This document shows, piece by piece, positions 8,480 through 27,766 of a stretch of DNA of 32,487 nt (within the stretch, counting starts at the first letter, position 1; each line of letters opens with the position of its first letter). Under the pieces are notes generated by a model. The model did not search any database. It saw nothing but the letters and a program-made list of their open reading frames with translations, and had not been told where the DNA came from. The stretch spans positions 2,033 to 34,519 of the forward strand of contig DHIZ01000190.1 of NCBI GenBank assembly GCA_002404055.1. Direction: 5' to 3'. Origin of the DNA: Chloroflexi bacterium UBA4733 (GTDB lineage Bacteria; Chloroflexota; UBA4733). Both the position numbers and the translations under genes were made by a program.

Positions 8480-8690
8480 TGATCTGATACTCCTCAACGC
8501 GGGGATCGAAGGGGCGGGTATCGAGGACGTGTCGTGGCCCCTCCTTGCGGGAGACGAGACACCCTTGCTCCCGTGCTTCCCGCAGGATGCGCTCGGCTGC
8601 GGCAATCTGTTGCCGGGCTTCCTCGGTGTCGGTCGTTTCCCATTCTACTACCTGGTGACCATAGCGGTTAGCCACGATGATGCGGTGCAT
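8457..8690 (-). CDS. Small protein with C-terminal Ile-Ala-Gly-Gly tail, unknown function
   Basis: This 77-residue protein (MHRIIVANRYGHQVVEWE at the start) has a predicted strand pair, a charged helix (TEEARQQIAAAERILREARE), further strands and the ending IIAPIAGG. A terminal PIAGG or PVAGG is the hallmark of MoaD/ThiS and other ubiquitin-like sulfur carriers and modifiers, but the rest does not obviously match a beta-grasp family. The ATG follows GAGAGGAGCGTTCC, a good ribosome-binding site. A TACAAT hexamer on the minus strand at 8771-8766 may be a -10 box, though I see no good -35. The gene overlaps the start of the next one and the two form a unit. No adjacent E1-like, JAB or ThiF gene is present. 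Confidence 0.75.
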   Translation of the reverse strand: MHRIIVANRYGHQVVEWETTDTEEARQQIAAAERILREAREQGCLVSRKEGPRHVLDTRPFDPRVEEYQIIAPIAGG

Positions 8691-8878
8691 GGAACGCTCC
8701 TCTCACTGCTGCCCGATGCGGGTGGCGACAAGGATGCAGCGGCGCCTATCCCGACGCGCAGCGTGATTGTATCTTACACCCAATGCCCGGAAGACACAAG
8801 AAGCAGCCGGTGGCACAGGAAGCGCCCCCTTGATGGGACGGCGCGGGACACTGCCAGCGTGTTCCGCGCCGCGCAGGC

Positions 8879-9496
8879 CTATTCGGTAGGTGGGGCCGGG
8901 ATCTCGGCAACCTCAGCCGGGGCCTCCTCCACGACGACGCGTGGCGCGTTGACTTTGGTAACGAGTTCGTCTGGATCGAGGATCGCTTCCACGCCGGCCG
9001 GCAACTTCAGGTCGCGGACGGCGATCGCGTCGTCGACGTGGAGGAGGCCGGAGATGTCCACAATGATCATGGACGGCATGTCGCCGGGGAGGGCGCGCAC
9101 GCGCACATGACTGAGCAGAGGCAGGATATTGCCGTTCTCGTCCCGCACGGCTGGCGCCTCGCCAATAAGGTGGATCGGCACTTCCGCCACGATTGGCTCG
9201 TCCATGCGCACGTGGTAGAGGTCGGCATGGATCGGGCGCCGGGTGATGGCGTTATAGGTGAGGCGGCGGATCAGGACGTTGCGCACACCCTTCTCTCCAT
9301 CGACGTGCAATTCCACCATGCCGCTGCTGCCGGCCTCGCGGGCCACCAACTCCAGTTCACGCTGGGGAATTTGCACCGCCTCCGACTGGCGGTTGTGGCC
9401 ATAGATGTTCGCCGGCACCAGACCTTCCTGGCGCAGGCGCTTCACCTGCTTCCCCAGAACCGTGCGCGTGGTCGCCTGCAATGTGCGAGTAGCCAA
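8879..9496 (-). CDS. rplY: 50S ribosomal protein L25 (general stress protein Ctc type)
   Basis: L25 binds 5S rRNA in the central protuberance of the large ribosomal subunit. The 205-residue product is the two-domain Ctc/TL5 type: an L25 domain (about 1-92; GKQVKRLRQEGLVPANIYG, then RRPIHADLYHV) and a C-terminal beta domain (about 98-185; VPIHLIGEAPAVRDENG, HVRALPGDMPSMIIVDISGL in part, DLKLPAGVEAI), followed by an acidic, Pro-rich tail. Translation starts at TTG, preceded by AAGGAAGGTAGAACG, and the second residue onward (ATRTLQATTRT) fits the family. The gene stands alone, divergent from the TPP-binding subunit gene. No pth gene, a common neighbour, is present. Confidence 0.95.
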   Translation of the reverse strand: MATRTLQATTRTVLGKQVKRLRQEGLVPANIYGHNRQSEAVQIPQRELELVAREAGSSGMVELHVDGEKGVRNVLIRRLTYNAITRRPIHADLYHVRMDEPIVAEVPIHLIGEAPAVRDENGNILPLLSHVRVRALPGDMPSMIIVDISGLLHVDDAIAVRDLKLPAGVEAILDPDELVTKVNAPRVVVEEAPAEVAEIPAPPTE

Positions 9497-11326: not shown

Positions 11327-12481
11327 TCATCCCACCGGCACAGCCAGTCGTGCCGCCACTTTGCTGATGCCGGTGCGGATATGGGCTTCGCTGGCGGCAA
11401 GGGAGACGCGGACCCAGCCGCGCGAGACGTCGCCGAAGGTGCTGCCGGGAGCGAGCGCCACCCGATCCTGCTGCAGCAGGGACTTACAGAAGGCCATGTC
11501 GTCGCTGGTTTCGGCGCTGACGTCGATCATCAGGTAAAAGGCGCCGCACGGTGGGTAGAAGGTAGCGGCCTGCTGTCCGAGTAAGTCACAGGCAATGTCG
11601 CGCCGGCGCTGATAGGCGGAACGCATGTCGGCCACGCATTGCTGCGGACCCGCCAGGGCAGCTTCGGCTGCCTTCTGGGAAATGGCGGAGGCGCAGGCGA
11701 CGTAACCCTCCTGGACCTTGTTGCAGTTGGCGACGATCTCCTCCGACGCGACGAAATAGCCCAGCCGCCAGCCCGTCATGGCGTAGGTCTTGGAAAAACT
11801 GAAGACGCTGATGACGCGCGGGTCATCGGTCAAGGTGTAGGGGCTGACGTGCCCACCTTCGAAGATGATCTCCTCGTAGACCTCGTCCCCGATCAGATAC
11901 AGGTCATGGCGCTGGGCAAACTCCACAAGATCCTGCATGGCGGTCCGAGTGAACACGCAGCCTGTCGGATTGGACGGGCTGTTGATGAGGAGCACCTTGG
12001 TGCGGGGCGTGACGAGGCGCTCCAGTCGCGCCACTTCGGGCTGGAAACCTGCGGACGGCTCCAGCGGATAGCGAACCGGGATGGCGCGAGCGCCGGTACA
12101 CATCATCATGTAGTTGGGCCAGCCCGGGTCCGGTATCAGCACCTCGTCGCCTGGGTCGCAGAGCGCGCGGATGAGCACCGCAAGACCGCTCGTGGACCCG
12201 GCGGTGACGACGACCTCGTTCGGGTTCGCCCGAATGCCGTTACGGACCTCCAGCTTCCGGCACAACGCCTCGCGCAGGGAGAGGAAGCCGGTGGTGGCCG
12301 TGTACCGTGTCCAGCCGTCGTGCATCGCACGCTGGGCTGCCACGCAGATGTGCTCCGGCGTCGCAAAGTCAGGGTCCCCAATCTCCAGGTGGATCGCGTC
12401 CGGCATGCCCAGCGCGAGCACCTGCATCTCCCGAATACCGGAGGAGGGAATGGCGCGAATGTCGTCCGAGATCGCTTTCAC
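11327..12481 (-). CDS. Class I/II PLP-dependent aminotransferase (aspartate aminotransferase family)
   Basis: The 384-residue enzyme would transfer amino groups between an amino acid and a 2-oxo acid. Fold type I features are clear: IHLEIGDPDFATPEHI, YTATTGFLSLREAL, the cofactor-contact segment NSPSNPTGCVF, DEVYEEIIF, and the Schiff-base lysine in SFSKTYAMTGWRLGY; the carboxylate-binding Arg is in GWVRVSLA. It belongs to the AspC/Ib subgroup; the exact amino acid is not determinable. The GTG start follows AAGGAG at 5 bp spacing and gives the family-typical N-terminus (KAISDDIRAIPSSGIREM); the frame is open further upstream but into the divergent kinase gene. It is followed by the DegT-like gene. 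Confidence 0.93.
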   Translation of the reverse strand: MKAISDDIRAIPSSGIREMQVLALGMPDAIHLEIGDPDFATPEHICVAAQRAMHDGWTRYTATTGFLSLREALCRKLEVRNGIRANPNEVVVTAGSTSGLAVLIRALCDPGDEVLIPDPGWPNYMMMCTGARAIPVRYPLEPSAGFQPEVARLERLVTPRTKVLLINSPSNPTGCVFTRTAMQDLVEFAQRHDLYLIGDEVYEEIIFEGGHVSPYTLTDDPRVISVFSFSKTYAMTGWRLGYFVASEEIVANCNKVQEGYVACASAISQKAAEAALAGPQQCVADMRSAYQRRRDIACDLLGQQAATFYPPCGAFYLMIDVSAETSDDMAFCKSLLQQDRVALAPGSTFGDVSRGWVRVSLAASEAHIRTGISKVAARLAVPVG

Positions 12482-12611
12482 GGCAACTCCTTGTCCTGAA
12501 TGGTCGTCTTGGACGCATGATAGCGACCTGGACGCCATAATAGGACCGTCCGGCGGGCCGGCCGGCGTAGCCAGGCATGCGGTGCGGTACCGCGAGCGGG
12601 ACGGAGGATAG

Positions 12612-14168
12612 GTGATCGAGCGAGCAGCGACGGCAGCGGTAACTGCAGCAGGAACGGTGACCCCGGAAGCGGCGGTAGGGCCACTGGTGCTTACCCTGGA
12701 CATCGGCACATCATCCTTGCGGACGGAACTGTACGATCGCCACGGGCGTGCCGTTGCGGGGCCTGGTGCGCGAAAAACCTATGAAGTGGTGACGACCGCT
12801 GATGGCGGCGTGGAACTGGACCCCGACGAGATCGTGAAGGCGGCCGTCACAGCGATTGATGAAATCGTGCAGCAGGCCGGCCCTCTGGCCGGACGCATCG
12901 GCGCTGTCGCTACCGACACGTTCTGGCACAACATGATCGCCCTGGACGGTGACGGGCGGCCGCTCAGTCCGATCTACACCTGGGCCGATACGCGCGCAAC
13001 TACCGCCGCCGAGCAACTCAAACAGGAACTGAATGAGCGGGCAGTGCATCAGCGCACCGGCTGTGTCCTCCACGCCAGCTACTGGCCGGCGAAGTTACGC
13101 TGGCTGGCCGTCTCGCGGCCAGATCTCGTGCAACGGACGCAACGCTGGGCCTCTATCGGGGAGTACCTGTATTTTCGGCTGACCGGGAAGTGGAACTGCA
13201 GTGTCTCGATGGCCTCCGGCACCGGCCTGCTCGACCAGCACCGCCGCACCTGGGATGCCGAGGTGCTGGCGGCCTTACATCTGCGCAGCGAGCAGTTGAG
13301 CCCATTGACCAGTGGCAGCGAGCCACTCGGCGGGCTGCTACCCGACTATGCCTCGCGCTGGCCGGGCTTACGGCAAGCTGTCTGGTATCCAGCCGCCGGT
13401 GATGGAGCGTGCAGCAATGTCGGCAGCGGCTGTACCGACCAGAGTCGCTTTGCCCTGATGATCGGCACCTCGGGGGCGATGCGCGTCTGCTTTGCCGCCG
13501 ACGACGTGGCAGTGCGCTGGGGTTTGTGGTGTTACCACGCCACGCCGGCCTACTTCGTGCTGGGGGGGGCGCTGTCGAACGGTGGCATCCTCTGGGAATG
13601 GTTGCAGCGCACCCTGCGCCTGCCGGAAGGGGAGGCCGCCGAGCAGGCGATGGCGGCAATGGAGCCGGATGCGCACGGGCTCACGGTGCTGCCGTTCCTG
13701 GCCGGCGAGCGCAGCCCCAACTGGGCGGGGCACGCGCGCGCCGCCTTCGTGGGAATAAGCCTCAACACGCAGCCGATCGATATGATGCGGGCCGGACTGG
13801 AATCCGTTTGCTACCGCTTCGCCCTGATCTATGAACTGCTGCAGACGATTGTGCCGGGAAAGCCGCAACTGGTGGCGAATGGCGGCGCGGTACTCCATTC
13901 GCCGCTCTGGATGCAGATGCTGGCGGATGTCTTAGGGTCTCCCCTCACGGCGTCTGGAGAACAGGAAGCGACAAGCCGTGGCGCTGCGCTACTGGCTCTG
14001 CTCAGCCTGGGCGCCATACCCTCCCTGACCGATGCATCGGCGCCGGCCGCCCTTGGCCGGACCTACGAGCCGGATGCCGCCCACCACGAGCGCTACCACG
14101 CCGCCGCCTTGCGTCAACGCCGACTCTATGAGTTGTTGATCGTGGGCGGACAGGGGCTGGGAGCCTAG
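12612..14168 (+). CDS. gntK: FGGY-family carbohydrate kinase, gluconokinase-like
   Basis: The 518-residue protein phosphorylates a sugar or sugar acid, most likely gluconate to 6-phosphogluconate. The ATPase fold shows the phosphate-1 loop in LDIGTSSLRTELYD, VATDTFWHNMIALD, TWADTRA, the catalytic Asp in PAAGDGACSNVGSG, phosphate 2 in IGTSGAMRV, GGALSNGGILWEWL and the adenosine motif in VANGGAVLHSPLW. The segments TFWHN, GDGACSNVGSGC and LAGERSPNW are typical of the gluconokinase branch. GTG starts 3 bp after GGAGGAT; the first 25 residues are Ala-rich and non-conserved. It is divergent from the aminotransferase operon across 130 bp. No gnd or gluconate permease gene is adjacent, so the substrate remains an inference. 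Confidence 0.88.
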   Translation: MIERAATAAVTAAGTVTPEAAVGPLVLTLDIGTSSLRTELYDRHGRAVAGPGARKTYEVVTTADGGVELDPDEIVKAAVTAIDEIVQQAGPLAGRIGAVATDTFWHNMIALDGDGRPLSPIYTWADTRATTAAEQLKQELNERAVHQRTGCVLHASYWPAKLRWLAVSRPDLVQRTQRWASIGEYLYFRLTGKWNCSVSMASGTGLLDQHRRTWDAEVLAALHLRSEQLSPLTSGSEPLGGLLPDYASRWPGLRQAVWYPAAGDGACSNVGSGCTDQSRFALMIGTSGAMRVCFAADDVAVRWGLWCYHATPAYFVLGGALSNGGILWEWLQRTLRLPEGEAAEQAMAAMEPDAHGLTVLPFLAGERSPNWAGHARAAFVGISLNTQPIDMMRAGLESVCYRFALIYELLQTIVPGKPQLVANGGAVLHSPLWMQMLADVLGSPLTASGEQEATSRGAALLALLSLGAIPSLTDASAPAALGRTYEPDAAHHERYHAAALRQRRLYELLIVGGQGLGA

Positions 14169-14446: not shown

Positions 14447-14854
14447 TCACTGTGCGCCAAGCAAGTAGGTCTTGGTGGCAGGCTCGTAGAACAGGCCGCC
14501 CTGCCGATAGTTGTTGCCATCCGTCGCTTGTCCGGCCGGTGGCTCGCTGGCGCTGCCCGTGGGGCAGTAATTGCAGGTGGCGACCACGTTGCCGTTGGCG
14601 TCGTAGCTGTAGGTGGCCGTCTTGCCACCGCTGGTCGCCGTCATCCACTCGTTGGCGGCGTTGTAGCCCAGCGTCGTCAGCGTGCTGTTAGCGTTGAGGA
14701 CGGAGCCGCACCATAAATCCTGATTCTCGCGTTCGGCTTGTTGCGAGCGGATGGCCTGACATCGTGCGGGAGATCGCCTGTTTCCTCTGCCCGCGAATGT
14801 GTCGTCCTGCGGCGAACCGTGGGGAACGACCTCGGGCGAGGTCTCGTGCTTCAT
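14447..14854 (-). pseudogene. Orphan RHS/YD-repeat fragment
   Basis: From about residue 53 the 135-codon frame reads LNANSTLTTLGYNAANEW, then TYSYDANGN and VVATCNYCPTG, closely matching two separate parts of the full RHS gene downstream of 17004. In the full gene these parts (around 18000-18100 and 17570-17630) are more than 90 residues apart; here they are joined directly, so the fragment carries an internal deletion. It ends at QGGLFYEPATKTYLLGAQ, where an RHS core would continue into a YDP..GRF tip. The first 50 residues do not look like RHS. Its ATG overlaps the stop of the preceding gene as ATGA. It has no signal peptide and is best seen as a displaced or decayed toxin-gene remnant, though expression cannot be excluded. 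Confidence 0.75.
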
Positions 14855-15672
14855 TCGGATCTGCCGCCTGTACGATGCGGTTCGATCCCTTTGATTTGAA
14901 GCGACAATCGCTGCAGTTCGCGATCAACAGCCGTTATGGCAGTTAGTTCCGCCGTGAAGAAGGCATCCCTCGTCCGTTCAGGTTCCATCAACTCTGTCCG
15001 ACGCAACCAGAGGGCATTTTGGAACTGGGAGAGTGCTGCCAAGATGCTTGCCACGCGCTCCTCTTCACTTGGCACTGGTACCGCGTCAATTGCTCCCGGA
15101 TCGCGGCGCGCCCACCGGCGTGGCGTGTAGCGCTGCCCAATGCGTACGACGCCGCCCCACTTCTCTACGGGCTCAATAACCATGCGCTGCGCTGCGGCTG
15201 GGTAGTACAGATCGCTGGGCAATCCGTTGGCCGCCCAGCAAGCCTGGAGTTGCGCGAACTGCTTGGGACTGAGCGTGAGGAATCCGTATGCCATGCCGTC
15301 GCTTTGATCAAGCAACAGCTTGTCTCGCTGGTAAAGATTCAAGACATCCCCCAAGATAGGGTCTGGAAGGACAGCCAGCCAGGCGAATAGCTCATCAACA
15401 AATAGCTCCCGTTCCTCTATCGAAGACGGGAGCGCCCCTTGACGAAGCAAATCACGCTGGACACAGGGACGAGCCAGATAGCGATCAGCCCACTGCGCGA
15501 CACAACGGGCGGTGATACGAACGGCGCGCTCGAAAAGGGCCATATCCATCGCGAAACGGGGCTCGGCGTCGTTGAAGAAGTAGTCCGTCTCGAGCAAATA
15601 GTGCGCGTGGCCCAGTCCCGGAGGCCGCGTCGGCGGTGGCATGGTGCGCGACTCCGCACCAGCGCTCATCAT
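14851..15672 (-). CDS. Uncharacterised protein, paralogue of the RHS-adjacent protein; candidate immunity protein
   Basis: The 273-residue product matches the gene at 15947-16990 along its length: HYLLETDYFF, VRITARCVAQWADRYLARP, LNLYQRDKLLLDQSDG, ANGLPSDLYY, then VIEPVEKWGGVVRIGQRYTPRRWARRD, and a C-terminal helical unit (FQNALWLRRTELMEPERT). It has no signal peptide or membrane segment, so it is probably cytoplasmic. I know no named family for it. It lies between its larger paralogue and an RHS fragment on the same strand, the usual place for immunity genes of polymorphic toxins. Two consecutive ATGs form the start, preceded only by a weak GGTGA. The 274 bp separating it from the paralogue contain no convincing gene. 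Confidence 0.8.
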   Translation of the reverse strand: MMSAGAESRTMPPPTRPPGLGHAHYLLETDYFFNDAEPRFAMDMALFERAVRITARCVAQWADRYLARPCVQRDLLRQGALPSSIEERELFVDELFAWLAVLPDPILGDVLNLYQRDKLLLDQSDGMAYGFLTLSPKQFAQLQACWAANGLPSDLYYPAAAQRMVIEPVEKWGGVVRIGQRYTPRRWARRDPGAIDAVPVPSEEERVASILAALSQFQNALWLRRTELMEPERTRDAFFTAELTAITAVDRELQRLSLQIKGIEPHRTGGRSE

Positions 15673-15946
15673 CTGTCACCAACGGATGATCCATGTTCTC
15701 ACGCATTTCCTCTCACATTGATCAAGTCTCCGAAACGGCTGCACCAGAAAGGAAACCAATGATACGCGGTGCTGGCGGCGGGCAAAGTGGCCGGATCAGT
15801 GTTGTTCGCCCCGGGCGGTAATAGGGTTGGGGTGACCCACGGTCAAGGCCACTTGATACTTTTTGTGTTCGCTCCATCGCGATGCGGAAGGACACGATAC
15901 CTTGAACTCGGTCACCGCAACAACCTACCGAGAGAGTTGATCCCCA

Positions 15947-16990
15947 CTACTGATGCTCCAGTACCCCCGGTACAGTATCGTCCTGCCCGGTGCGTGCCTC
16001 CTCCTCATCGGCGCGCATTCGCGTATCGGTCACTAGTGCCATGAGCGCGTTCAGATCTGCGAGTTCGGCCGGATCTGGTCTCGTGCCGGGCTCGTTCAGT
16101 TCTGCCTTTCGTAGTGATATGGCCTTGGCAAACCGAAAACAAGCGGCGAAGAATGCTTTATCCTGTTGCTTCTGCACAACCGTCGGTGCCTGCTGGCGTC
16201 GGCCGAAACTGATCTGTCGACCAGCATATCGTTCGTAGATCCGCATGGTTAGGTCGCGCAGTCGTTCAAGCTCTGCTTGGTCCCTGCCTTGGACAGCCAT
16301 CTCAGATTGCGGTACACAATGCAAGCGCGTATTCAATACGTTCAGGAACCTTCGGCACGCCTCCGCGAATGTTGTCCGGCGTTGATCCTCACTGGGTATT
16401 AGCAGCGACGATGTCGCTGCAGCGTCTCGGCTAGACCAGTAGAGCGGAGTGTAGCGCTGGAGCATCCGCGCCACCCCGCCCGCGTACGCCACAGGTTCCA
16501 CGATCTGCCGCTGCTTGGTGGACAGATAATACAGGTCCGTTGGCAGTGCCTCTCGCCTCCATACGCTTTGCAGTGCCCTGAATTCACGCTCCTTCAGCAT
16601 CAATACGCCAGGGAAGCCATCGTACTGGTCAAGTAACGTAACATCGCCTTGATATAGATTTAGACCCATTGCGGCCACACTTTTCTGCGCGGCTGACCGT
16701 TCGATCCAACTCAGGACACTCTTGATCGCTGCCTCGCGCTCCGCCGAGCTGGCCGGTAACTGCTCTTGCTGCGATCCTTGAATGCCGCTCAACGAGCGTG
16801 CTAAATAGCTAGTCGACCATCGTGCAATGGCGAGTGCAGTTACGCGAGCAGTCCGAGCGGCCGGGAAGGCCGGCTCCTCAAACAAGTAATAGTACTCGGG
16901 GAGGTAATACGAATGCCCTGCCGCCGCCGGAGATTGCGGCGGCGGCGGCACTTGAAGCGGACCACGTCGGGCCAGGGAGCGCTCAGTCAA
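15947..16990 (-). CDS. Uncharacterised protein directly downstream of the RHS gene; candidate cognate immunity protein
   Basis: This 347-residue protein starts at TTG, 8 bp after GGAGG, which itself follows the RHS stop codon; only 13 bp separate the genes, so they are one operon. It shares with the shorter paralogue the motifs YYLPEYYYLFEEP, RWSTSYLARSL, LNLYQGDVTLLDQYDGFPG, LPTDLYY, IVEPVAYAGGVARMLQRYTP and the YWSSRD segment. It is larger because a C-terminal helical unit (FAEACRRF...AELERL, about 208-256) appears to be repeated (FFAACFRF...AELADL, about 280-327), joined by a basic linker. No signal peptide or membrane helix is present. Function is unknown; a role neutralising the RHS C-terminal domain is inferred from position only. 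At this length it is large for an immunity protein. Confidence 0.83.
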   Translation of the reverse strand: MTERSLARRGPLQVPPPPQSPAAAGHSYYLPEYYYLFEEPAFPAARTARVTALAIARWSTSYLARSLSGIQGSQQEQLPASSAEREAAIKSVLSWIERSAAQKSVAAMGLNLYQGDVTLLDQYDGFPGVLMLKEREFRALQSVWRREALPTDLYYLSTKQRQIVEPVAYAGGVARMLQRYTPLYWSSRDAAATSSLLIPSEDQRRTTFAEACRRFLNVLNTRLHCVPQSEMAVQGRDQAELERLRDLTMRIYERYAGRQISFGRRQQAPTVVQKQQDKAFFAACFRFAKAISLRKAELNEPGTRPDPAELADLNALMALVTDTRMRADEEEARTGQDDTVPGVLEHQ

Positions 16991-17003
16991 CCGTTTACCC
17001 TCC

Positions 17004-20000
17004 TTAGCGATATGCTGGAGGAATATCAATGAGTTCGGTTAGCTTGGGCACAAGGTTAGCAAGTACAAAATTGTAGATCTGCCTTGCTTGCCGCGAGTTG
17101 CTGAAGTTGACGCCGGACACGATCGTGGCAACTTCCCCGCCGGCTTCCTGGGGAGTCGTTCCCACTCGGCCATATACATCACTGGTGAAGCCGTTCTCGG
17201 GGACAGAGTAATCATACGTGATGTGCTGGTTCGAGTAGCCGGCCGTGACACTCACATGGCAGCCTATGCCGTGGTTCTCTGGCCCGCGTACGTTTACGTA
17301 GATCTCACCAAAGGTCCTGTCGGCAAAGGCCCCCGCACTCGGACAGGGGTTGGCTTGCACCTGCTGTCCCGTGGTGGCCTGGGCGGTGCGTGGGCAGAGG
17401 AAGCCAAAAAGGCCACCGAATGGCCCGCCGAGGATGAGGCAGAACTGGGACTGGGTGGCATTGCCCGAGTTCGCATCAATGCGCAAGACGCCGTCCCCAT
17501 AGGTCTGGGTGCCGGGATCCAAGGGCAGGCTGAACTGGCCAAAGTAGTTGCCGGCGGCGGCTGGTCCGCTCGGCGGCACGGCCGGGTTGCCGGTCGGGCA
17601 GTAGTGGTAGGTGGCGACGACGTTGCCGCTGGGGTCGACCAGCCGCACCACGCTGCCCTGGCCATCCAGCAGGTAGTGGTAGACCACCCCGTTCGGCAGC
17701 CGCTGGGAGATGAGCGTGCCGCCTGGGTCGCGGGTGTAGTAGGCGGTGCCCGTGTTGTCCGTGGCGTGCAGCAGCCCGGAGCCGTAGGTGTAGGTGGCGG
17801 GACCACCGGGGGTGTCGGGATTGCTCGCTACCCAGGCCGCCGAGACCCGCTCCGCCTGCCCCGGTCCGGTGTAGGTCATCGGGATGACGTTGCCCTGGGT
17901 ATCCGTCACACTCGCCGTCTGGTTCTTGGCGTTGTAGGTGATCTTCAGCGCCTTGGTCGGGTCGCCGAAACCGTCGTTGCCCAGCTCATTGCCGTTGGCG
18001 TCATAGGTGTAGTTGGCCGTCTTGCCACCAGACGTGGCGGTCATCCACTCGTTGGCGGCGTTGTAGCCCAGCGTGGTCAGCGTCCCGTTGGCGTTGATGC
18101 TGGTGCGGTTGCCGTCACCGTCAAAGCTGTACTGGTAGTTCAGGGCCGGGAAGGTCGAGCCGCTGCCCGGCGTGACCACCCAACTGGTCAGCCGGTTGGC
18201 GGCGTCGTACTGCTGGGCAGTGGTGGTGAGGTCGATGCCATCGGTGCTGCTGGAGACCAGCATGCCGTCTCCACCGCCCGGCTTGGTGTAGCTGTAGCTG
18301 AAGTTCGTGAGCTGGGTGCCGCCCGCCGTCTTGGCCGCGATCGTCGCCAAACGACCCGAGGTGTCGTAGGTTTGACTCTGCACCACGCCACCAGCGAAGG
18401 TGGTGCTCGTGCGCTGGCCGTTGGCGTCGTAGCCAAACGTCGTCTGCCCCAGGTTGCTCGGCTCGGTGAGCGTCACCGGCAGGTTGACGGCGTTGTAGGC
18501 GTAGCTGACCGTGCCGCCGCTGTCCGTCAAGGCGGTCAAGTTACCCACCGCATCGTAGCCGTAGCCGACGGTCACGCTGCCCGGCAACGTCTTCTGCGTC
18601 TTGCGATTCTGGGCATCGTAGGTGTAGCTGGTGGTGCCGGTATTGTCCACCATGCTGGTCTGATTGCCGTCGGCGTCGTAGGCCGAGGTGATGGTCGAGC
18701 CATCGGCGTAGCCCACCTGCGTCACCCGGTCCAGTGGATCGTAGGTGGAGGTGGTCTGCTGCCCCTTGCCGTCGGTCGTGCTGGTGGGGCGGCTCAGCCC
18801 GTCGTAGCGGATGGTCATCCCACCGAGCGGCGCGGGCGGGGTCACGGTGGTGAGGTTGCCCTTGGCGTCGTAGCCATAGCTGGTGGTGTTGCCGTTGAAG
18901 TCGGTCGCTGAGGCCACCGTGCCGTTGGCGTTGTAGACAGCGGTCGCCCGGTTCTGGCTGGCGAGCGCATCAGTGATCGTCGTCAGGTCGCCGTTGCCGT
19001 CGTAGCCGTAGCTGGTTACATTGCCCTGGGCATCGGTGCTGCTGGTGGGCACGTAGAAGTTGGGGATGTTGGTGACGGTACCGTAGACGGCCTTGGTCGT
19101 GGCGCCGGTCTGGAGCGCGACCTGCGTGAGGTTGTTATTGCTGTCGTAGCCGTAGGTCGTCACCTTGCCGTAGGCATCCGTCGTGGAGGCAGGATGGCTG
19201 TCCGCCGTCCAGGCCGTCTGGAAGCTGTTCCCGGCAGCGTCCACGACCTTCGTGACGCGGCCCAGGTAGTCGTAGTAGTAGGTGGTGGCATGGCCGTTGG
19301 GGTCCGTCACCACGGTGTTGCCGCTGTTGTAGGTGTAGCTGTAGACGGCCTGCACCGGGCTGCCGGCGGCCAACGTGACGCTCGTCACCCGGTAGGTGTT
19401 GGCCCCGTCGTAGGTGAGCTTGGTGATGGTGCCGTTGGGGTCGGTGATCTGGATCAGTTCATTACTCGTGTCGTAGGCGTACTGCGTCACCTTGTTGTTC
19501 GGATCGGTGTACTGCGTCAGGTTCTTGTTGCTGTCGTAGCCGTACTGGTAGGTGCGGCCGGACGGGTCGGTCATGGTGGTGATCAGGCCGCTGCTGTAGG
19601 AGCTGGTGTGGGCGAAGGTCGTCACCCGCCCTTGCGTGTCGGTCAGCGAGACCATGTTGCCCGATTGGTTGTAGCCGTAGCTGATCGTGTTGCCGTTCTT
19701 GTCCGATTGCGACAGCATCAAGCCGCCGCCGCTGGGCCAGCGATACTGCCCGCCGCTACCGTGGAAGGTGAGGGTGTAGGTTCCGTCACCATTCTTGACC
19801 AACGTCGCATCAATCCCCGTTGGACTGGTAAAGCTGCCGTCGGGGTTGCGGGGGAAGAAGACGCCCCAGTTGGCGCCGTAGATATCCGCCCCGTCGCCCT
19901 GGCCGTTGCCGTTGAGGACCAGCTCGATGTCGCTGCCGGTGTTCAAGGCCCAACTGTTGCCGACATCCCAGGAGGACACGGAGAGATTGTTGTAGGTGCG

Positions 20001-21602
20001 GTTGACCGCCAGGGGCAGGCCGGTGCCGGCGATGCCGAGGTCGCTCGCTTGGAGCATGAGGTTGCCGTTGGCGACGTTGACGCCCAGCCCGGAGCGGTCG
20101 GTGAGGGGGTAGCTGTTGAGGGTGGAGTAGCCTTTGGCCCCCAGCCACTGCTCCCACTTGATATTCAGGTAGGGCCAGTGGGCGCTGGTGACATCCTCGC
20201 TGGAATCGAAGCCCACCCAGTTGACCGTACTCTCGTTGGGTTCCTTGAGCAAGAGGCCATCGTTGGTGATCGTGCCGTTGGTCCAGCCCTGCACCAACGA
20301 GGTGATGTACCACTGGTAGAAGACGCCACTACTGGTACCGACGTTGGTGGTCCAGAGCGGGCTGGCGGTGTAGGTCCCACCGGGGCTGGTCCAGGCGCTG
20401 CTGCCGTCGGTGGTGTTCCAAGTGGCAGCCGTGGTCCAGGGCTGGGTCACCTGCTGCAAGGCCATGGCGGGGGCGCTGTTGGGGTTGTCCTGGGCGGTGA
20501 GCAGCAGATTGACGGAGGCTTCCAGGATGGTGAAGTTGTTCGGGAAGGCCTTGCCGTAGCCGCCTTCGATGTTGAAGTTGAGCAGGGTGCGATAGAGGTT
20601 GCTGCCGTCATAGCCCGCATACAGCGTGTCCTGACCGCACTGGCTGCTGTTGGCGTAGGCGCCGTTGACGAGGTAGCAGTCGGCGGTGGCGCCGACGAAG
20701 GAGATGGCGTTGATGTAGACGGTGGGATCGATCGTCACCGGGTAGACACGGGCCGGGTTGGCGAGCCAGGTGGGGTCGGCGCTGAGGGTGACGGTCTGGC
20801 CGGTGGCGTTGGTCCCCAAGGTGAGGCTGACGGCGGAGGAGACGCCGGAGGGCTTGCCCGAGCTGTCTTTCATGTAGGGCGTGGCGAAGCTGAACTGGAC
20901 CTTCCCCGCGCTGTCCAGGAAGGCAATACCGCCGTGGCCGTCCGCTTTGGCCGTGAGGCCGTTGGTCTGGAGGGTGTAGACGAAGCTATGGGGTGCGGCG
21001 GCGCTCTGCAGGACCACCGCCTCTTTGACGACATCGTTGCCGGCGGTGTAGCTGACGGTGACGCCCGGCAGCGCATTGGCGTAGGTGGCCGTGGCGGTCG
21101 CGGTGGCGGCGGTGGCGCTGCTCAACGCGCCGACCAGGGCGAACTGCACAAAGGCATTGCCGCTGCTCACCCGCACAGGGGCGCTGCCCAGCGTCTTGGG
21201 CAGGTGGACCTGGTAGCGGTTGGCCTGGTTGGTGTGGGCGTAGCCCGTGGTCGTATCCGCCACGAGGGTGTCGCTGATCGGCTGCCACTGGCCCGTCGCA
21301 TCCTGGTAGTTGACGGAGCCCCGGTAAATGCGAGTCTCGTAGTGGGCGCCGACGCGGAAGGTCTGGCTGGTCTGCGTGCGGCGGCTGGGCACTTCCACCG
21401 CTGTGCCGGTCGGGATGCCCACCGCTGCCCCGCTCGGCGTGACACCGGCCGGCTGCGTCGTGTTGACGGTCGTTGACGGGCTGTTGCCGATGCCGGCGAG
21501 GGAGCGAGCGAAGGCGGGGGCGGCGGGACCGCCGGCGCTGAGCGCCATGCTCAGCAGGAGCAGCACCCGGAACCAGACCACGAGACGGAGCGGACGGCGC
21601 AT
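17004..21602 (-). CDS. Secreted RHS/YD-repeat protein with variable C-terminal domain (putative polymorphic toxin)
   Basis: The 1532-residue protein starts at ATG after GAGGAGTTGCT and has a Sec signal peptide (RRPLRLVVWFRVLLLLSMALSAG...AFA). Residues about 300-490 resemble a DNRLRE-type cell-surface domain (DTLYAGYDGSNLYRTLLNFNI). A DUF6531-like segment follows near 515 (NGNLMLQASDLGIAGTG), then YD repeats to about 1340 that would form the RHS shell (YGYDSNKNLTQYTDPN and many similar). The tip is degenerate: QTYGDGVLRIDANSGNATQS replaces the usual YDP..GRF. The last ~115 residues after NPCPSAGAF are a distinct domain (FGEIYVNVRGPENHGIGCH, ITYDYSVPENGF, ARQIYNFVLANL) that I cannot assign; a toxic activity is inferred from architecture. 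It would act outside the cell or on contact. The candidate immunity gene follows in the same operon. Confidence 0.9.
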   Translation of the reverse strand: MRRPLRLVVWFRVLLLLSMALSAGGPAAPAFARSLAGIGNSPSTTVNTTQPAGVTPSGAAVGIPTGTAVEVPSRRTQTSQTFRVGAHYETRIYRGSVNYQDATGQWQPISDTLVADTTTGYAHTNQANRYQVHLPKTLGSAPVRVSSGNAFVQFALVGALSSATAATATATATYANALPGVTVSYTAGNDVVKEAVVLQSAAAPHSFVYTLQTNGLTAKADGHGGIAFLDSAGKVQFSFATPYMKDSSGKPSGVSSAVSLTLGTNATGQTVTLSADPTWLANPARVYPVTIDPTVYINAISFVGATADCYLVNGAYANSSQCGQDTLYAGYDGSNLYRTLLNFNIEGGYGKAFPNNFTILEASVNLLLTAQDNPNSAPAMALQQVTQPWTTAATWNTTDGSSAWTSPGGTYTASPLWTTNVGTSSGVFYQWYITSLVQGWTNGTITNDGLLLKEPNESTVNWVGFDSSEDVTSAHWPYLNIKWEQWLGAKGYSTLNSYPLTDRSGLGVNVANGNLMLQASDLGIAGTGLPLAVNRTYNNLSVSSWDVGNSWALNTGSDIELVLNGNGQGDGADIYGANWGVFFPRNPDGSFTSPTGIDATLVKNGDGTYTLTFHGSGGQYRWPSGGGLMLSQSDKNGNTISYGYNQSGNMVSLTDTQGRVTTFAHTSSYSSGLITTMTDPSGRTYQYGYDSNKNLTQYTDPNNKVTQYAYDTSNELIQITDPNGTITKLTYDGANTYRVTSVTLAAGSPVQAVYSYTYNSGNTVVTDPNGHATTYYYDYLGRVTKVVDAAGNSFQTAWTADSHPASTTDAYGKVTTYGYDSNNNLTQVALQTGATTKAVYGTVTNIPNFYVPTSSTDAQGNVTSYGYDGNGDLTTITDALASQNRATAVYNANGTVASATDFNGNTTSYGYDAKGNLTTVTPPAPLGGMTIRYDGLSRPTSTTDGKGQQTTSTYDPLDRVTQVGYADGSTITSAYDADGNQTSMVDNTGTTSYTYDAQNRKTQKTLPGSVTVGYGYDAVGNLTALTDSGGTVSYAYNAVNLPVTLTEPSNLGQTTFGYDANGQRTSTTFAGGVVQSQTYDTSGRLATIAAKTAGGTQLTNFSYSYTKPGGGDGMLVSSSTDGIDLTTTAQQYDAANRLTSWVVTPGSGSTFPALNYQYSFDGDGNRTSINANGTLTTLGYNAANEWMTATSGGKTANYTYDANGNELGNDGFGDPTKALKITYNAKNQTASVTDTQGNVIPMTYTGPGQAERVSAAWVASNPDTPGGPATYTYGSGLLHATDNTGTAYYTRDPGGTLISQRLPNGVVYHYLLDGQGSVVRLVDPSGNVVATYHYCPTGNPAVPPSGPAAAGNYFGQFSLPLDPGTQTYGDGVLRIDANSGNATQSQFCLILGGPFGGLFGFLCPRTAQATTGQQVQANPCPSAGAFADRTFGEIYVNVRGPENHGIGCHVSVTAGYSNQHITYDYSVPENGFTSDVYGRVGTTPQEAGGEVATIVSGVNFSNSRQARQIYNFVLANLVPKLTELIDIPPAYR

Positions 21603-22041: not shown

Positions 22042-23457
22042 CTAACGGTAGCGGCTCGGCAAGATGCCGAGGGCGTCGCGGTACTTCGCTACGGTGCGCC
22101 GGGCGATGTGGAAGTGGCGCTCCGCCAGCTTCTCGGCGATGTGCTGGTCGCTCAGCGGCGCCTGCTCGGTTTCGTCGTCGATCAGCTCCCGCATGGTGTC
22201 CTTGATGCCGAGAGAGGCATCGAAGAAGTCGTCGTAGGAGATGGCGCGACCGTTCGGCAAGAGGACATACTTCTCGGCGGTGGCACGGCTGATCGTGCTC
22301 TCGTGCAGGCCGACCATATCGGCCAACTCGCTGCGCGTGAGCGGCTTCAGATAGCGCACGCCCTTGTCCAGAAACTCGCTCTGATAGTTGATCAGTTTGG
22401 TAGTGATCTGGCGCAATGTTTCCCAACGCTGGCGCACACAGTCGATAAAGAAGCGCGCCTTCGCCACGTGCTCTTTGATGTGGGCGCGATCTTCCGGGCT
22501 GAGGTGGGCGGCCATACCGTCCACATTGGTGCAGAGCGAACGGTAGCTGCTATTGATGCGCAGATCGAAGCGGACCGACTCGATCACCTCCACCTCGAAG
22601 GCGCCGGTCTGGGTGCGTCGGATGATGACGTCGGGCTTGAAGGACCGCGCCTGGGTGGCGGCGGCGTTTGATTGGTAGCCGTTGGCCGGATGCGGGTTGA
22701 GGCGTTCCTTAATGAACTTCCAGCCGTCCTTGACCTCCGTCAGGTTACAGCCAAGCGTGGATACTGCTTCCTGCCAGCGCCGTTCGGCCAGTGCTTTGAG
22801 CAGGTTGCGCTCCACGATGGCGCTGGCAACCGGGTTGGCGATACCGTTCTCCGCCAGCATGTTGAGTTGAATAGCCATGCACTCACGCAGGTCGCGCGCC
22901 CCGATGCCCGCCGGTTCGAGCGATTGCAGGACGGTCAACACCGCCAGCACGCGCTCTTGCGAGATATCCAAGGCACGGGCGGCATCTTCGACGCGAACAC
23001 TCAGGTAGCCGCGTTCGTCCAGGTTGCCGACCAGGTACTCGGTGATAGGCAAATCGGCATCAGCGACCTGCGCCGCGAGACCGACCAGGAGCATGTCCGC
23101 CAGTGACTCTTCCGAGGTAATACGGGCCAGGGGGTCATAGTCGTCATCGTCGCCGCCGTTGCGACCGGTGGCAGAGTCACCATAGCGTTCAGAGTCCCAG
23201 TCGCTGACTTCCTCTTCCTTGGCGCCGGTTGTTTCCGTTTGTCTGGTGCAATTGACACAGTTCCCGTCTTCTAGCGGGCCGCCACAGGTGGGACACTGGC
23301 TGATTTCCTCGACTTCCAACGCGGGGTTTTCCATCAGTTCGTGCTGGATGGTCTGGGCCAGCTCCTGTGACGACAAAGCCAGGATTTTGGTTGAGGCGAT
23401 GAGTTTCGGGGAGATCCGGACGCTAAATTCCGGTCGGATTTGTTGTTCGAGGTCCAC
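22042..23457 (-). CDS. rpoN: RNA polymerase sigma-54 factor with zinc-ribbon insert
   Basis: RpoN directs RNA polymerase to -24/-12 promoters and needs an ATP-driven activator. The 471-residue product has region I (about 1-50; ISPKLIASTKILALSSQELAQTIQHELMENPALEV), a core-binding domain (QSLEPAGIGARDLRECMAIQL) and a DNA-binding domain with the helix-turn-helix LTRSELADMVGLHESTISRAT and the RpoN box ARRTVAKYRD (452-461). Between regions I and III sits a CPTCGG...CVNC zinc-ribbon motif (C55, C58, C67, C70) and an acidic linker, absent from classical RpoN. I prefer the GTG start after GGAAGGCGGGCGC; an ATG 22 codons upstream has a poor binding site. No enhancer-binding activator is in the window. 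Confidence 0.94.
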   Translation of the reverse strand: MDLEQQIRPEFSVRISPKLIASTKILALSSQELAQTIQHELMENPALEVEEISQCPTCGGPLEDGNCVNCTRQTETTGAKEEEVSDWDSERYGDSATGRNGGDDDDYDPLARITSEESLADMLLVGLAAQVADADLPITEYLVGNLDERGYLSVRVEDAARALDISQERVLAVLTVLQSLEPAGIGARDLRECMAIQLNMLAENGIANPVASAIVERNLLKALAERRWQEAVSTLGCNLTEVKDGWKFIKERLNPHPANGYQSNAAATQARSFKPDVIIRRTQTGAFEVEVIESVRFDLRINSSYRSLCTNVDGMAAHLSPEDRAHIKEHVAKARFFIDCVRQRWETLRQITTKLINYQSEFLDKGVRYLKPLTRSELADMVGLHESTISRATAEKYVLLPNGRAISYDDFFDASLGIKDTMRELIDDETEQAPLSDQHIAEKLAERHFHIARRTVAKYRDALGILPSRYR

Positions 23458-23897
23458 GCGCCCGCCTTCCGGTAACCTGTGACGGCGGGAACCGGGCAAG
23501 GAGAAAGCACGCTGCTTTCCCATTGCATCCGTTCATGCCGCAAGTTTTATGCCATTCCTCGTTGTCAGAGCCTACCACAGTGATCGCCCCTCCGGCAAGT
23601 GCAAAGCCATTAGCAACGTTCGTGCCAGGGAAATAGTCGCGGCACTGTACTGCCTCCGCCGATTTGGCGGTGCTCCCGTCACTACGTATACTGTTGGTGA
23701 CGGTACGGGCCGTCAACGCTGTCCACGCCACGGTTTCGGCCGGTGCAAAAGGACAGCGTCGGCAAGCAGAACAGGATGGGTTTTGGACGACGGGCCTAGA
23801 CAGGGCGGACAGCGGTTCGCCCGTCACACGCGACCTGTAATGACGCGAACAGTCACACAGCGAGCAGTGGCTATTCCCGCGCTGAAACGGCTGATGT
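23458..23897. other. Intergenic region between divergent rpoN and the MgtE-like gene
   Basis: I find no supported gene. It should contain divergent promoters. On the minus strand, TTGACG (23716-23711) and TATACG (23690-23685) look like promoter hexamers for rpoN, but their spacing is 20 bp. A small hairpin lies at 23656-23670. Confidence 0.4.
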
Positions 23898-23982: not shown

Positions 23983-25251
23983 ATGCCGTTTGTCAGCGAA
24001 GTGGTCAATGCCCCGGTTTTTGATGCCCGGCGCGAGCGCATCGGGAAGATCACCGACGTGCTGGTCCAGCCGACGATCCCCTATCCCACGGTGAGCGCCG
24101 TCGAGGTCACGGCAGGACGCAACGTCCTGCTCGTGCCCTGGTCGCTCATTAGCCAGTTCAACGCCGAAGCGGTCACGCTCTCCGTTGCCCGTGGCGAGGT
24201 GCCGACCAACGGGGTACCATCCGGCAATGGGCAGGTCCGGCTGGTGCGGGATGTCCTGGACAAGCAGATCCTCGATGCCGAGGGGTCGCGGCTCATCCGG
24301 GCCAACGATCTCCAGTTGGCCCAGAGCAACGGCAGTGTCCATCTGGTCGGCATCGATATCTCCGGCAAGGCGCTGATCCGGCGGCTCGGCCTGGGTCCCC
24401 TGGCCCGCAAGGTCGCCCAGCGCATGCCCGATACGGTCATCTCCTGGGACGACGTGGACCGCTTCGGCGGCAGCGGCGCTCCGGTGCGCCTGAAGGTCAG
24501 CGGGCGTTCCCTGGCCACCACACACCCGGCTGACCTTGCCGCTCTGGTCGATCAGCTTTCCGTCGCGGAGGGTCGCGCTCTAGTGCAAGCGCTGGACGAC
24601 GAGACAGCCGCCGACACGCTGGAGGAGGTAACCCCGGAGCGCCAGGTGTCGCTCCTCCAGGACATGGAAAGTGGCCGGGCCGCCGACATTCTGGAGGCGA
24701 TGGGACCGGACGATGCTGCGGACGTGCTGGGCGATATGGCGGACGCCAAAGCGCGCGAGCTGCTTGGCCTGATGGAAGACGCCGAAGCGCGGGAAGTGCG
24801 GGAACTGCTCGGCTACCCCGAAGATAGCGCCGGCGGCATTATGACCACGGACTATCTGGCGGTACCGCAGCGCATGACCGCGCAACAGACGATTGACGAA
24901 CTACGAGCCAACCGAGCGCCGGCTGAGATGGCCTACTACGTCTACGTGTTGGAGGACCGGGAGAGTGAGCGCCTGACCGGCGTCGTGTCGCTGCGGGAAC
25001 TGATCCTGGCTGACCCGTCCAAGCCGCTCACCGAGGTCATGACGCACAACCCGATAACGGTCAACGTCAATGACCACCAGGACGACGTTGCCAGGCTGAT
25101 CGCCAAGTATAATCTCTTGGCGGTCCCGGTTATCGACGATCAGCGGCGACTGCAAGGGGTCGTTACCGTCGACGACGCTATCGACATTCTCCTGCCCACC
25201 GCCTGGAAGAAGCGCCTGCCGCGCGTGTTTGCCCGGCAGCCGGTGTCCTAA
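23983..25251 (+). CDS. PRC-barrel, MgtE N-terminal and CBS-pair protein without membrane domain
   Basis: The 422-residue protein has one or two PRC-barrel-like segments at the N-terminus (about 1-60, SEVVNAPVFDARRERIGKITDVLV; and 85-150, RDVLDKQILDAEG), then the alpha-helical MgtE N-domain (about 185-285; LAALVDQLSVAEGRALVQALDDETAADTLEE in part, and DDAADVLGDM) and two CBS domains (about 290-410; AGGIMTTDYLAVP, LTEVMTHNPITV). In MgtE this cytoplasmic half senses Mg2+ and gates a five-helix pore; here the protein ends after the CBS pair and no pore follows. A regulatory or metal-sensing role is inferred. Related proteins often lie next to NRAMP-type transporters, but none is here. Its stop overlaps the stop of the convergent anti-sigma gene. 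The start has a GGAGGTGG site. Confidence 0.88.
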   Translation: MPFVSEVVNAPVFDARRERIGKITDVLVQPTIPYPTVSAVEVTAGRNVLLVPWSLISQFNAEAVTLSVARGEVPTNGVPSGNGQVRLVRDVLDKQILDAEGSRLIRANDLQLAQSNGSVHLVGIDISGKALIRRLGLGPLARKVAQRMPDTVISWDDVDRFGGSGAPVRLKVSGRSLATTHPADLAALVDQLSVAEGRALVQALDDETAADTLEEVTPERQVSLLQDMESGRAADILEAMGPDDAADVLGDMADAKARELLGLMEDAEAREVRELLGYPEDSAGGIMTTDYLAVPQRMTAQQTIDELRANRAPAEMAYYVYVLEDRESERLTGVVSLRELILADPSKPLTEVMTHNPITVNVNDHQDDVARLIAKYNLLAVPVIDDQRRLQGVVTVDDAIDILLPTAWKKRLPRVFARQPVS

Positions 25252-27092
25252 TCGCCGCCGGCTGCGTCGGACCAGGCAAACACGCCGCGATAGCTGGCGA
25301 GACCGGAGTTGCCGAAGTTCAGGTGTGGCAACTGTTGCAGGCCGACAATGCTATCGACGACGGGATGCGGGTCCGAGCCGTCGCGAGCCACCACCCACAA
25401 TTGTGCGCTGTCCCCCTCCTGGTGGACATAGATGATCTCCTTGCCGTCCTTCGACCACTGTGGAAAACTGTCCAGCGGTCCGGCACTGAGCGGCCGCCGC
25501 CCGCTGCCGTCGGGGCCTTCCAGCCAGATGCGGCGTGAACTGCCGGCAGCCGTGCTCGGGGATGGCAACAGGCTACTGGCGTAGGCAATGAGCACGCCGT
25601 CGGGCGACCAGGCCGCGTCCCCATCGGCTCGCCCCGGATCAGTCAGCTCGTGCGCCGGCCCCTGGGGGCGAACCGGCACCACCGTGACCTGGCCCGGTCC
25701 CTGATGGCCATCCCGTGTGCGTGAGGGCGCCACGGCGGCGAGCGCGTGGCCGTCGGGCGCCCAGGAGACGAAGTCCCGGTACATCAGGACGGCGGGTAGC
25801 ATGACTCGCTCGCCCCCGTGCCTGGACCAGAGGGCCAGCGGAGCCGGCGTACTCGCACGTTGTCCCAGGCCCCGCGACGTCCAGAAGGTAAACGCCTCGC
25901 TTTGTGGGTCCCAGGTACCAAGGACAGGGAGCGCTAATGGGTCGCCTGGTGCTGGCGCGATTGACGCCCCGGCGACGCCGGTGTTCGCTGGTCTCGCGTC
26001 GTTCATCCCGACAGATACCTGCGTGATGCTGCCACCCCGGCTGACCAGCCAGATGGACTGGGCCGCTCCGCCGACGCCGCGCCGCTCCACCGCGACTTCG
26101 GAGCCATCGGGCGACCAGGCAAGGTTCGTGATAGAACCGCCGGCAGGCAAGAGTGGCCGGGGCGAATCGCTTCCGGCCTGCACCAACCACAGACCACCGC
26201 TGGACGATGCAACGGCGATTTCGTCGCGCCGAGGAGACCAGCGAGCGAGTCCAGAATCTGCCGGTGCGGGTAGGCGCCAGGGCGCCGCACTGGCGCCCGG
26301 TTGCAGCAACCGAAGGACCGCCGAGGATGCCGGTCCGGTCGATTCGTACAGCAGCCAGCGGCCGGAAGGCGACCAGCGCGGCGCCGTCGCTGCGCCGGCC
26401 GAGGTGAGCAGGCGGCTCCCCGTCGCGCTGTACACGCGGAGATCACCGCTCAGCACAGCGGCGATCTTGCCCGAAAGATGAACTGTGTCGCTCACGGCCG
26501 GCAGGGGGGTGGCAGTGACAGCGTACCCTGGCGCCGCCGTGGCGCTGGCCCGTGGAGCCATCGACCGCGCCATCGCGGCGGGAGTCACTATCGCACCAAC
26601 CGGCGTGACCGTGGCGCCTATTATCGGTACGGCTGCCTGGTAACCAGGGTTCGTTGCAGCGACGGCTTCAGGGCGGATGTGTCTGCTTACAGCGAGAGGA
26701 ATCAGCAGCGCCGCAAGCACACTGACCAACAGACCGAGCGCCGTGCTGCGACGCACCGATGCATCCGCCCGCGGCTGTGTTGGCCTGTGTGCCGCGACGG
26801 GCGTGGAACCGGCGGATGCCGGATCACCGAGTCGCTCCCAACTCGGCGGTCCACGGCGGCGGATAGACCCTGTCGCCGTAGGAGGCGTTGTTGCGTCCCT
26901 GACCTGGCGGGCGACCATTGCGCCAATGAGCGTGTTGGTGCGCTGACGCAGGGCCTGCCACTCGGCCAGGCGCGCCCGGCAATGGACGCAATTCTGCACG
27001 TGCATTTCGATGGCGCGACGCTCGTCCGGCGTGGCCTCACCGTCGGCGTACACCATCAGCAGCAGATCAAACCTGCTGCAATCCTCAGTCAT
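25248..27092 (-). CDS. Membrane anti-sigma factor with zinc finger and beta-propeller sensor
   Basis: The 614-residue protein probably holds the neighbouring ECF sigma factor inactive. Its N-terminus carries the zinc-associated anti-sigma motif H31-x3-C35-x2-C38 (MHVQNCVHC). A single membrane helix follows at about 120-140 (ALGLLVSVLAALLIPLAV), then a low-complexity Ala/Thr/Pro linker and an extracellular TolB/PD40-like propeller (about 205-600) with repeated WSPSGRWLLYES, LAWSPDGSEVAVE, DAAWSPDGVLIAY and FPQWSKDGKEIIYV blades. The start ATG overlaps the sigma gene's end by 8 bp (ATGACTGA), so the two are translationally coupled. The ligand sensed by the propeller is unknown. The frame is open farther upstream, but only within the sigma gene. 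Confidence 0.9.
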   Translation of the reverse strand: MTEDCSRFDLLLMVYADGEATPDERRAIEMHVQNCVHCRARLAEWQALRQRTNTLIGAMVARQVRDATTPPTATGSIRRRGPPSWERLGDPASAGSTPVAAHRPTQPRADASVRRSTALGLLVSVLAALLIPLAVSRHIRPEAVAATNPGYQAAVPIIGATVTPVGAIVTPAAMARSMAPRASATAAPGYAVTATPLPAVSDTVHLSGKIAAVLSGDLRVYSATGSRLLTSAGAATAPRWSPSGRWLLYESTGPASSAVLRLLQPGASAAPWRLPAPADSGLARWSPRRDEIAVASSSGGLWLVQAGSDSPRPLLPAGGSITNLAWSPDGSEVAVERRGVGGAAQSIWLVSRGGSITQVSVGMNDARPANTGVAGASIAPAPGDPLALPVLGTWDPQSEAFTFWTSRGLGQRASTPAPLALWSRHGGERVMLPAVLMYRDFVSWAPDGHALAAVAPSRTRDGHQGPGQVTVVPVRPQGPAHELTDPGRADGDAAWSPDGVLIAYASSLLPSPSTAAGSSRRIWLEGPDGSGRRPLSAGPLDSFPQWSKDGKEIIYVHQEGDSAQLWVVARDGSDPHPVVDSIVGLQQLPHLNFGNSGLASYRGVFAWSDAAGGD

Positions 27093-27660
27093 CACCGTTC
27101 CGTTGCGCTCGATGAGTCGCTGGCGGGGAGGCGGCGTCGCGGGACTCGGCAGCATAGGCGGCCCGAAACGCGAGCCGGGCGCGATAGATGCGCTGTTTCA
27201 CCGCCGCCACCGAACAATCGAGAGTCTGGCTCAAGTCCGCGTAGGTCAGACCTTCGGCGTGGCCAAGGAGGCATGCCACGTGTTCGGGCGGCAGATTGGC
27301 CAGGGCACGCGCAACGGCGTCACCAGCGGCGATATCGTCGCCGAGGTCACGCCGTCCTGAGCGGTCATGCAGGTAGAGGTCGAAGGGTACCCAGGCGACG
27401 ATGCGCTTCCGACGGAGGGCGCTGATTGCCTTGTTCGTGGCGATGCGGTAGAGCCACGGTACCAGATACGCTTCATCCTGGAGGGTGGGCAACGCCTTGT
27501 AGGCCGAGACGAAAGTGTCCTGGCACAGGTCCTCAGCAAGTGCAGCATCGCGCACCATGCCGGCCAGGTAGCGCCCGATGGCCGGGCGGTACGTCTCGAA
27601 GATCGCCTCGAAAGAGAGCGACCGTGCCCGCCCGGCGACCTGCACCAGTCCGATGTCCAT
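27085..27660 (-). CDS. ECF (extracytoplasmic function) RNA polymerase sigma factor
   Basis: The 191-residue sigma-70 family factor has region 2 (about 15-85; FEAIFETYRPAIGRYLAGMVRDAALAEDLCQDTFVSAYKAL in part, then YLVPWLYRIATNKAISALRRKR) and region 4 (about 120-175; LANLPPEHVACLLGHAEGLTYADLSQTL and the helix CSVAAVKQRIYRAR). The ATG is preceded by GGAGG at 7 bp spacing and gives the normal N-terminal length, although the frame is open about 97 codons farther upstream into the FmdB gene. It is co-directional with the FmdB gene (106 bp upstream) and coupled to its anti-sigma factor. The target regulon cannot be read here; no clear autoregulatory promoter was found. Confidence 0.93.
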   Translation of the reverse strand: MDIGLVQVAGRARSLSFEAIFETYRPAIGRYLAGMVRDAALAEDLCQDTFVSAYKALPTLQDEAYLVPWLYRIATNKAISALRRKRIVAWVPFDLYLHDRSGRRDLGDDIAAGDAVARALANLPPEHVACLLGHAEGLTYADLSQTLDCSVAAVKQRIYRARLAFRAAYAAESRDAASPPATHRAQRNGDD

Positions 27661-27766
27661 ACCGCTGCCTCCCGCGCCAGCGCACAGCACATTCACCACA
27701 TCGTTGTCGATCCAACGGTAGCCGCGCTGGAGCACGGTGGGCGTGCCGCAGCGATGGATGCGTCGC

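Follow-up and report, generated by a model that had tools for sequence, protein, structure and literature searches.

The WapA/WapI system of Bacillus subtilis comprises an RHS protein with a signal peptide and a variable C-terminal toxin, and an immunity gene located downstream. The locus described here likewise encodes an RHS protein with a signal peptide and a C-terminal tip, followed by a candidate immunity gene; unlike in WapA/WapI, neither tip nor partner matches any model searched, and the partner is 347 aa long. WapA of Streptococcus suis is the subject of PMC12704120. The Rhs-CT/RhsI and CdiA-CT/CdiI loci, in the portion of PMC3150448 drawn upon here, consist of a main toxin gene and an immunity gene, followed by an orphan module with a scaffold remnant. 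The window (the whole stretch of DNA analysed, 32,487 nucleotides) shows the same order of RHS gene, partner gene and module with a scaffold remnant, although its displaced module (the 273-aa gene and an RHS fragment) retains the partner gene and no recognisable old tip, unlike the orphan modules covered by that portion.

Poly-immunity loci and proteins are described in the available part of Zhang et al. 2012 (PMC3482391); the paralogous candidate immunity genes in a row and a tandem double protein of the same family (P0003) are comparable to these. The family in the window, compared by way of Pfam, matches none of its models. Literature searches on Rhs with Ktedonobacter returned nothing, and those on Rhs immunity in Chloroflexota returned no title on this pair. 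Judged by title, surveys were found and no dedicated study of such weapons in the phylum. The tip/partner pair itself was not found in the literature, as judged from listings rather than full texts.

Layout of the RHS locus

Between an FGGY kinase gene (12612-14168, plus strand) and a sigma-54 gene (22042-23523, minus strand), four frames lie on the minus strand in the same orientation (Table 1), and those of 1532, 347 and 273 aa are open throughout. The arrangement proposed in the first-pass annotation, namely a 1532-residue RHS protein, a 347-residue neighbour 13 nt further on, a shorter paralogue and a degenerate RHS fragment, is borne out by the open reading frames, E-values and identities. 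The start codon of the 347-aa gene is the TTG at 16990, separated from the RHS stop codon by 13 nt, whereas the mechanically called frame (15947-17029, 360 aa) begins 13 codons further upstream. Because the gap is so short and the Shine-Dalgarno-like AAGGAGGG overlaps the RHS stop, translational coupling of the two genes is likely. The 347-aa and 273-aa proteins share 39% identity across 206 aligned positions (E 9e-42), and the degenerate fragment contains 37 aa that are 89% identical to residues 1169-1205 of the RHS protein (129 nt at 83% at the nucleotide level).

Table 1. Features of the RHS locus, in window coordinates
Feature	Position	Strand	Basis
Sec-type signal peptide, residues 1-33	21504..21602	-	by eye: RRPLR, hydrophobic run, AFA
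RHS/YD-repeat protein, 1532 aa	17004..21602	-	Pfam RHS_repeat, DUF6531; YD_repeat_2x and DNRLRE
DNRLRE domain, residues 308-481	20160..20681	-	NCBIfam NF033679, E 7.8e-22
Scaffold end, residues 1338-1393	17424..17591	-	degenerate equivalent of Rhs-associated core end, by eye
Putative foreign C-terminal stretch with candidate toxin tip, residues 1394-1532	17007..17423	-	GC3 change point; L018 relative
Shine-Dalgarno-like AAGGAGGG of the 347-aa gene	16998..17005	-	sequence; overlaps RHS stop TAA (17006-17004)
Candidate immunity protein, 347 aa, TTG start	15947..16990	-	alpha/beta core (about 27-195) and two helical hairpins (about 199-340)
Paralogous candidate immunity protein, 273 aa	14851..15672	-	core and one hairpin; 39% identity to 347-aa protein, alignments
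Degenerate RHS fragment, 135-aa ORF	14447..14854	-	RHS-like part about 14450-14706; Pfam RHS_repeat E 2.4e-5

Fifteen RHS_repeat stretches were detected in the RHS protein (Pfam, E 3.7e-82), together with a DUF6531 domain at residues 508-560 (Pfam). Its highest 19-residue hydrophobicity begins at residues 4-7, which, with the signal peptide recognised by eye, agrees with the earlier proposal of a secreted protein. The Rhs_assc_core model (TIGR03696), found in all 4 of the 4 full-length relatives compared, gave no match in the window protein at E<=10. The DPxGL motif, after which the Rhs-CT regions begin in the portion of PMC3150448 used here, is also missing, by eye, from the scaffold-end stretch. 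The missing Rhs_assc_core makes it doubtful that the tip is released in the usual way, and since both this model and the DPxG end are missing, we file the protein as an RHS-scaffold polymorphic toxin in the broad sense, not as a canonical Rhs_assc_core protein. The broad class is defined by an export signal with an RHS/YD-repeat filament, found here as the 15 stretches and the signal peptide (by eye and from hydrophobicity); an exchangeable C-terminal domain with a recombination junction, to which a GC3 change point and the other tips read on related scaffold ends correspond; and a partner gene directly downstream that moves with the tip, represented by the 13-nt gap and a second tip/partner pair (n = 2 tips).

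The other genes of the window include that of an ECF-type sigma factor (27085-27951, minus strand) and, after it, that of a zinc-finger anti-sigma-like protein (25248-27155, minus strand) which matches a PD40 propeller. The protein encoded at 23983-25251 combines a PRC barrel with MgtE_N and CBS domains; at E<=0.001, Pfam gave no match to an MgtE membrane domain in it. The frames of an aminotransferase (11327-12709, minus strand) and of the FGGY kinase share about 100 nt in a head-to-head arrangement, so that at least one of the two probably starts further in.

Composition and relatives of the C-terminal tip

The GC content of third codon positions (GC3) in the RHS gene changes at about residue 1394, from 0.907 before to 0.655 after this point (log-likelihood ratio 28.7, compared with a maximum of 8.1 across 200 permutations). 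Each 114-codon window of residues 1-1418 has a GC3 of at least 0.86 (mean 0.908, sd 0.019), whereas that of the last 114 codons is 0.64. The values are 0.614 for the 347-aa gene, 0.648 for the 273-aa gene and 0.76-0.81 for five other genes of the window, placing the scaffold above the neighbouring genes, and the tip and both partner genes below them. Scaffold and tip with partner genes therefore have different histories, as expected for a tip-swapped toxin locus, and the composition supports a putative foreign tip/partner cassette on an older scaffold. A distinct C-terminal domain had been proposed at about 115 residues; the domain stands, and by composition it extends over about 139 residues (1394-1532).

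The tip is predicted to be soluble and slightly acidic (pI 5.5). In agreement with the earlier remark that it matches no recognised toxin, profile searches of Pfam and NCBIfam matched no family model, and a fold search with a poor structure model (pLDDT 58.5) returned no match. Comparison with DUF4160 gave an hhalign probability of 0.15% over 11 columns, with just 2 sequences on each side. The end of the RHS protein, searched against 5.8 billion proteins, had no match among 120 candidates.

A single convincing relative of the tip was identified, in genome G104, with the match spanning about residues 1431-1530 (about 17013-17312). This frame (L018, 9193-9549, minus strand) has no attached RHS scaffold and lies directly upstream of a member of the 347-aa family (8106-9134, minus strand), the ATG of which follows the stop codon of the tip frame by 55 nt. 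Aligned by Smith-Waterman, the two tips score 88, whereas the best of 2000 shuffles reached 59. In a single-sequence search of 7 genomes, G104 was matched at E 5.2e-5, and otherwise just G041, weakly (E 0.0145). A tip profile that includes the G104 sequence was run on 400 phylum genomes and on the 47 genomes of its class, and both times matched G104 alone; searched against proteins, the two-row profile matched 1 of 20 candidates, the 97-aa P0006, identical in reading to the G104 frame. The G104 pair looks like an orphan tip/immunity cassette, and it is the strongest single piece of evidence for a toxin/immunity reading of the window.

Both tips contain IY, VRGPE... (RGPE in both), GCHVxV and HITY. 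The candidate tip is probably an enzyme working inside the target cell, a guess taken from these conserved letters because there are two tip sequences only, the model is of low confidence and no fold was matched. The portion of PMC3482391 available describes a class of predicted RNase toxins with two conserved histidine residues, which the GCH and HITY histidines of the window tip, with R, E and Y, recall, with no match in sequence or fold. If the tip is a toxin, the conserved R, E, CH and HxxY make a two-histidine RNase possible, as a guess with the odds against it.

Relatives of RHS residues 1250-1418 were detected in 41 of the 400 phylum genomes, and the tip profile had no match at these related scaffold ends. 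Eleven scaffold-end stretches, picked from the best and most clustered matches, were read, plus 8 more. Seven of the 11 carry two or more RHS ends in a row (L070-L074, L078 and L079), four of them with a long RHS gene (L070, L071, L072 and L074). The tips at these ends differ and, by eye, are mostly hydrophobic; short putative membrane proteins lie between them. Related scaffolds thus apparently exchange tips within the phylum. The window thus resembles these arrays, with their rows of different tips, in its related scaffold end, but differs in having a soluble tip and a large soluble partner, where the arrays have mostly hydrophobic tips and putative membrane partners of about 70-120 aa. The arrays themselves suggest tips that act on membranes, paired with immunity proteins located in the membrane. 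In another stretch (L085, 5933-11260), an RHS protein of 1776 aa carries a cysteine-rich, hydrophobic tip.

The partner family and its genomic surroundings

The 347-aa and 273-aa proteins matched 0 families in Pfam and NCBIfam at E<=1, and the searches gave stray matches only, one to Med11 in 1 of 11 family members (E 0.012) and one to an AAA-lid; the view that the candidate immunity proteins belong to no recognised family thus holds in these databases. Tip and partner together form a putative toxin/immunity pair that has no Pfam or NCBIfam model and shares the layout of an already known type of weapon. A protein search with the family gave 5 matches among 7996 scored candidates, including the window's own, and a genome-contig search gave one locus (L001), in a Chloroflexi MAG (G001). 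The family was detected in 7 of 400 phylum genomes with a first profile and in 8 of 400 with a wider one; by class, the counts were 1/29, 1/47, 1/1 and 3/158 genomes. To judge by its nearest relatives, the source organism itself probably belongs to Chloroflexota.

Outside the window, the family occupies nine places in eight genomes. A second match in G104 is the second hairpin of one gene and was not counted as a place. In G041, the second place (L024) partially duplicates the end of the first (L019), with 73 of 75 aligned residues identical; both lie at contig ends, and the copy may have been left by recombination or have arisen in the assembly. The family is modular, consisting of an alpha/beta core with zero, one or two helical hairpins. 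A ferritin/Dps-like four-helix bundle is a possible fold for the C-terminal part of the 347-aa protein. A tandem double was found once (P0003, 566 aa), and core-only genes of about 180-200 aa lie beside unrelated genes in G108, G232 and G359.

Surroundings were read for 8 of the 9 places (G239 was left out), and some stretches end at contig ends. The first-pass annotation had named homologues located mostly away from RHS genes as evidence against its reading, and this is partly the case: most places are away from them, and the expected association was found at 2 of the 9, which adjoin an RHS fragment or a tip. One is the G104 pair; the other is in G001, where an RHS-like fragment downstream of the family member matches Pfam RHS_repeat at E 0.0068, below the Pfam cut-off, and is missed by our home-made YD profile. 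Both places in G041 are near large MBG_2/TIG proteins, one of them after two mutually similar genes without a Pfam match. On L024 (1-5139), an MBG/TIG-domain protein is followed by mutually related 175-aa and 460-aa proteins and then by the partial family copy; this may be a row of mixed immunity genes next to a different toxin. In G359, an FG-GAP/laminin-G protein precedes the family gene by about 1 kb, and 628 nt of contig are left downstream; in G283, a short family fragment lies near a contig end. No RHS or tip was found within 18 kb in G232 and G108, or near any of the three core-only genes in the stretches read, across which the YD and tip profiles gave nothing further.

These core-only genes beside unrelated genes are what would be expected if the 347-aa proteins belonged to a Chloroflexota family with a wider protective or housekeeping role, repeatedly recruited beside toxins, rather than to a tip-specific immunity family. 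However, the patchy spread (8/400), the 39% paralogy and the tandem fusion in P0003 are traits of immunity families, and among hairpin-bearing places, the window's two included, 4 of 6 adjoin RHS or a tip (4 of 5 if the partial copy of G041 is set aside; short fragments of G239 and G283 are omitted). We consider the broader family unlikely, albeit the best surviving of the alternatives.

Reading of the locus

The reading we prefer, with a probability of roughly 0.82, is that of a polymorphic toxin locus built on an RHS scaffold. As its architecture suggests, the RHS protein would be exported via Sec and present its C-terminal tip to neighbouring cells. Recombination near residue 1394 would have fused a cassette of tip and 347-aa gene to the older scaffold, in keeping with the composition and the recurrence of the pair. 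The 347-aa protein would bind the tip in the cytoplasm and shield the producer and its kin, and the 273-aa paralogue and RHS fragment would be the rest of an earlier cassette that may still protect from the older tip. The earlier proposal of a polymorphic toxin with an immunity gene, a displaced older immunity gene and an RHS remnant is thus supported by the GC3 junction, the G104 pair, the RHS-like fragment in G001 (below cut-off) and the tip-swapped arrays of the phylum.

Alternatively, the tip would be a structural or adhesive domain with which a surface RHS protein ends, and the proteins downstream would be unrelated cytoplasmic or regulatory ones that lie there by chance; this would agree with a soluble, slightly acidic tip that matches no toxin family model and with the majority of family places lying away from RHS. 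Such a domain would, however, leave unexplained the G104 tip, which lacks an RHS scaffold yet has the same family downstream, the foreign composition common to tip and neighbours, and the 13 nt from RHS stop to a start codon with a Shine-Dalgarno site, and we regard it as improbable. Least probable is a decaying island that makes no functional toxin, in line with the degenerate RHS fragment and the missing Rhs_assc_core, but against which stand the three open frames and the Shine-Dalgarno site at the junction.

Going beyond the preferred polymorphic toxin reading, the tip could be a toxin enzyme with a new fold and a new target, and its partner the founder of a modular immunity family in which hairpins gained or lost, or tandem cores, alter specificity, with core-only members serving as stand-alone guards away from toxins; we consider this unlikely. 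The locus adds a candidate toxin tip and a candidate immunity family, neither of which has a Pfam or NCBIfam model; by title, no dedicated study of such weapons was found for the phylum. Duplicated hairpins and fused tandem copies among the partner proteins would provide a natural series for studying how immunity specificity changes.
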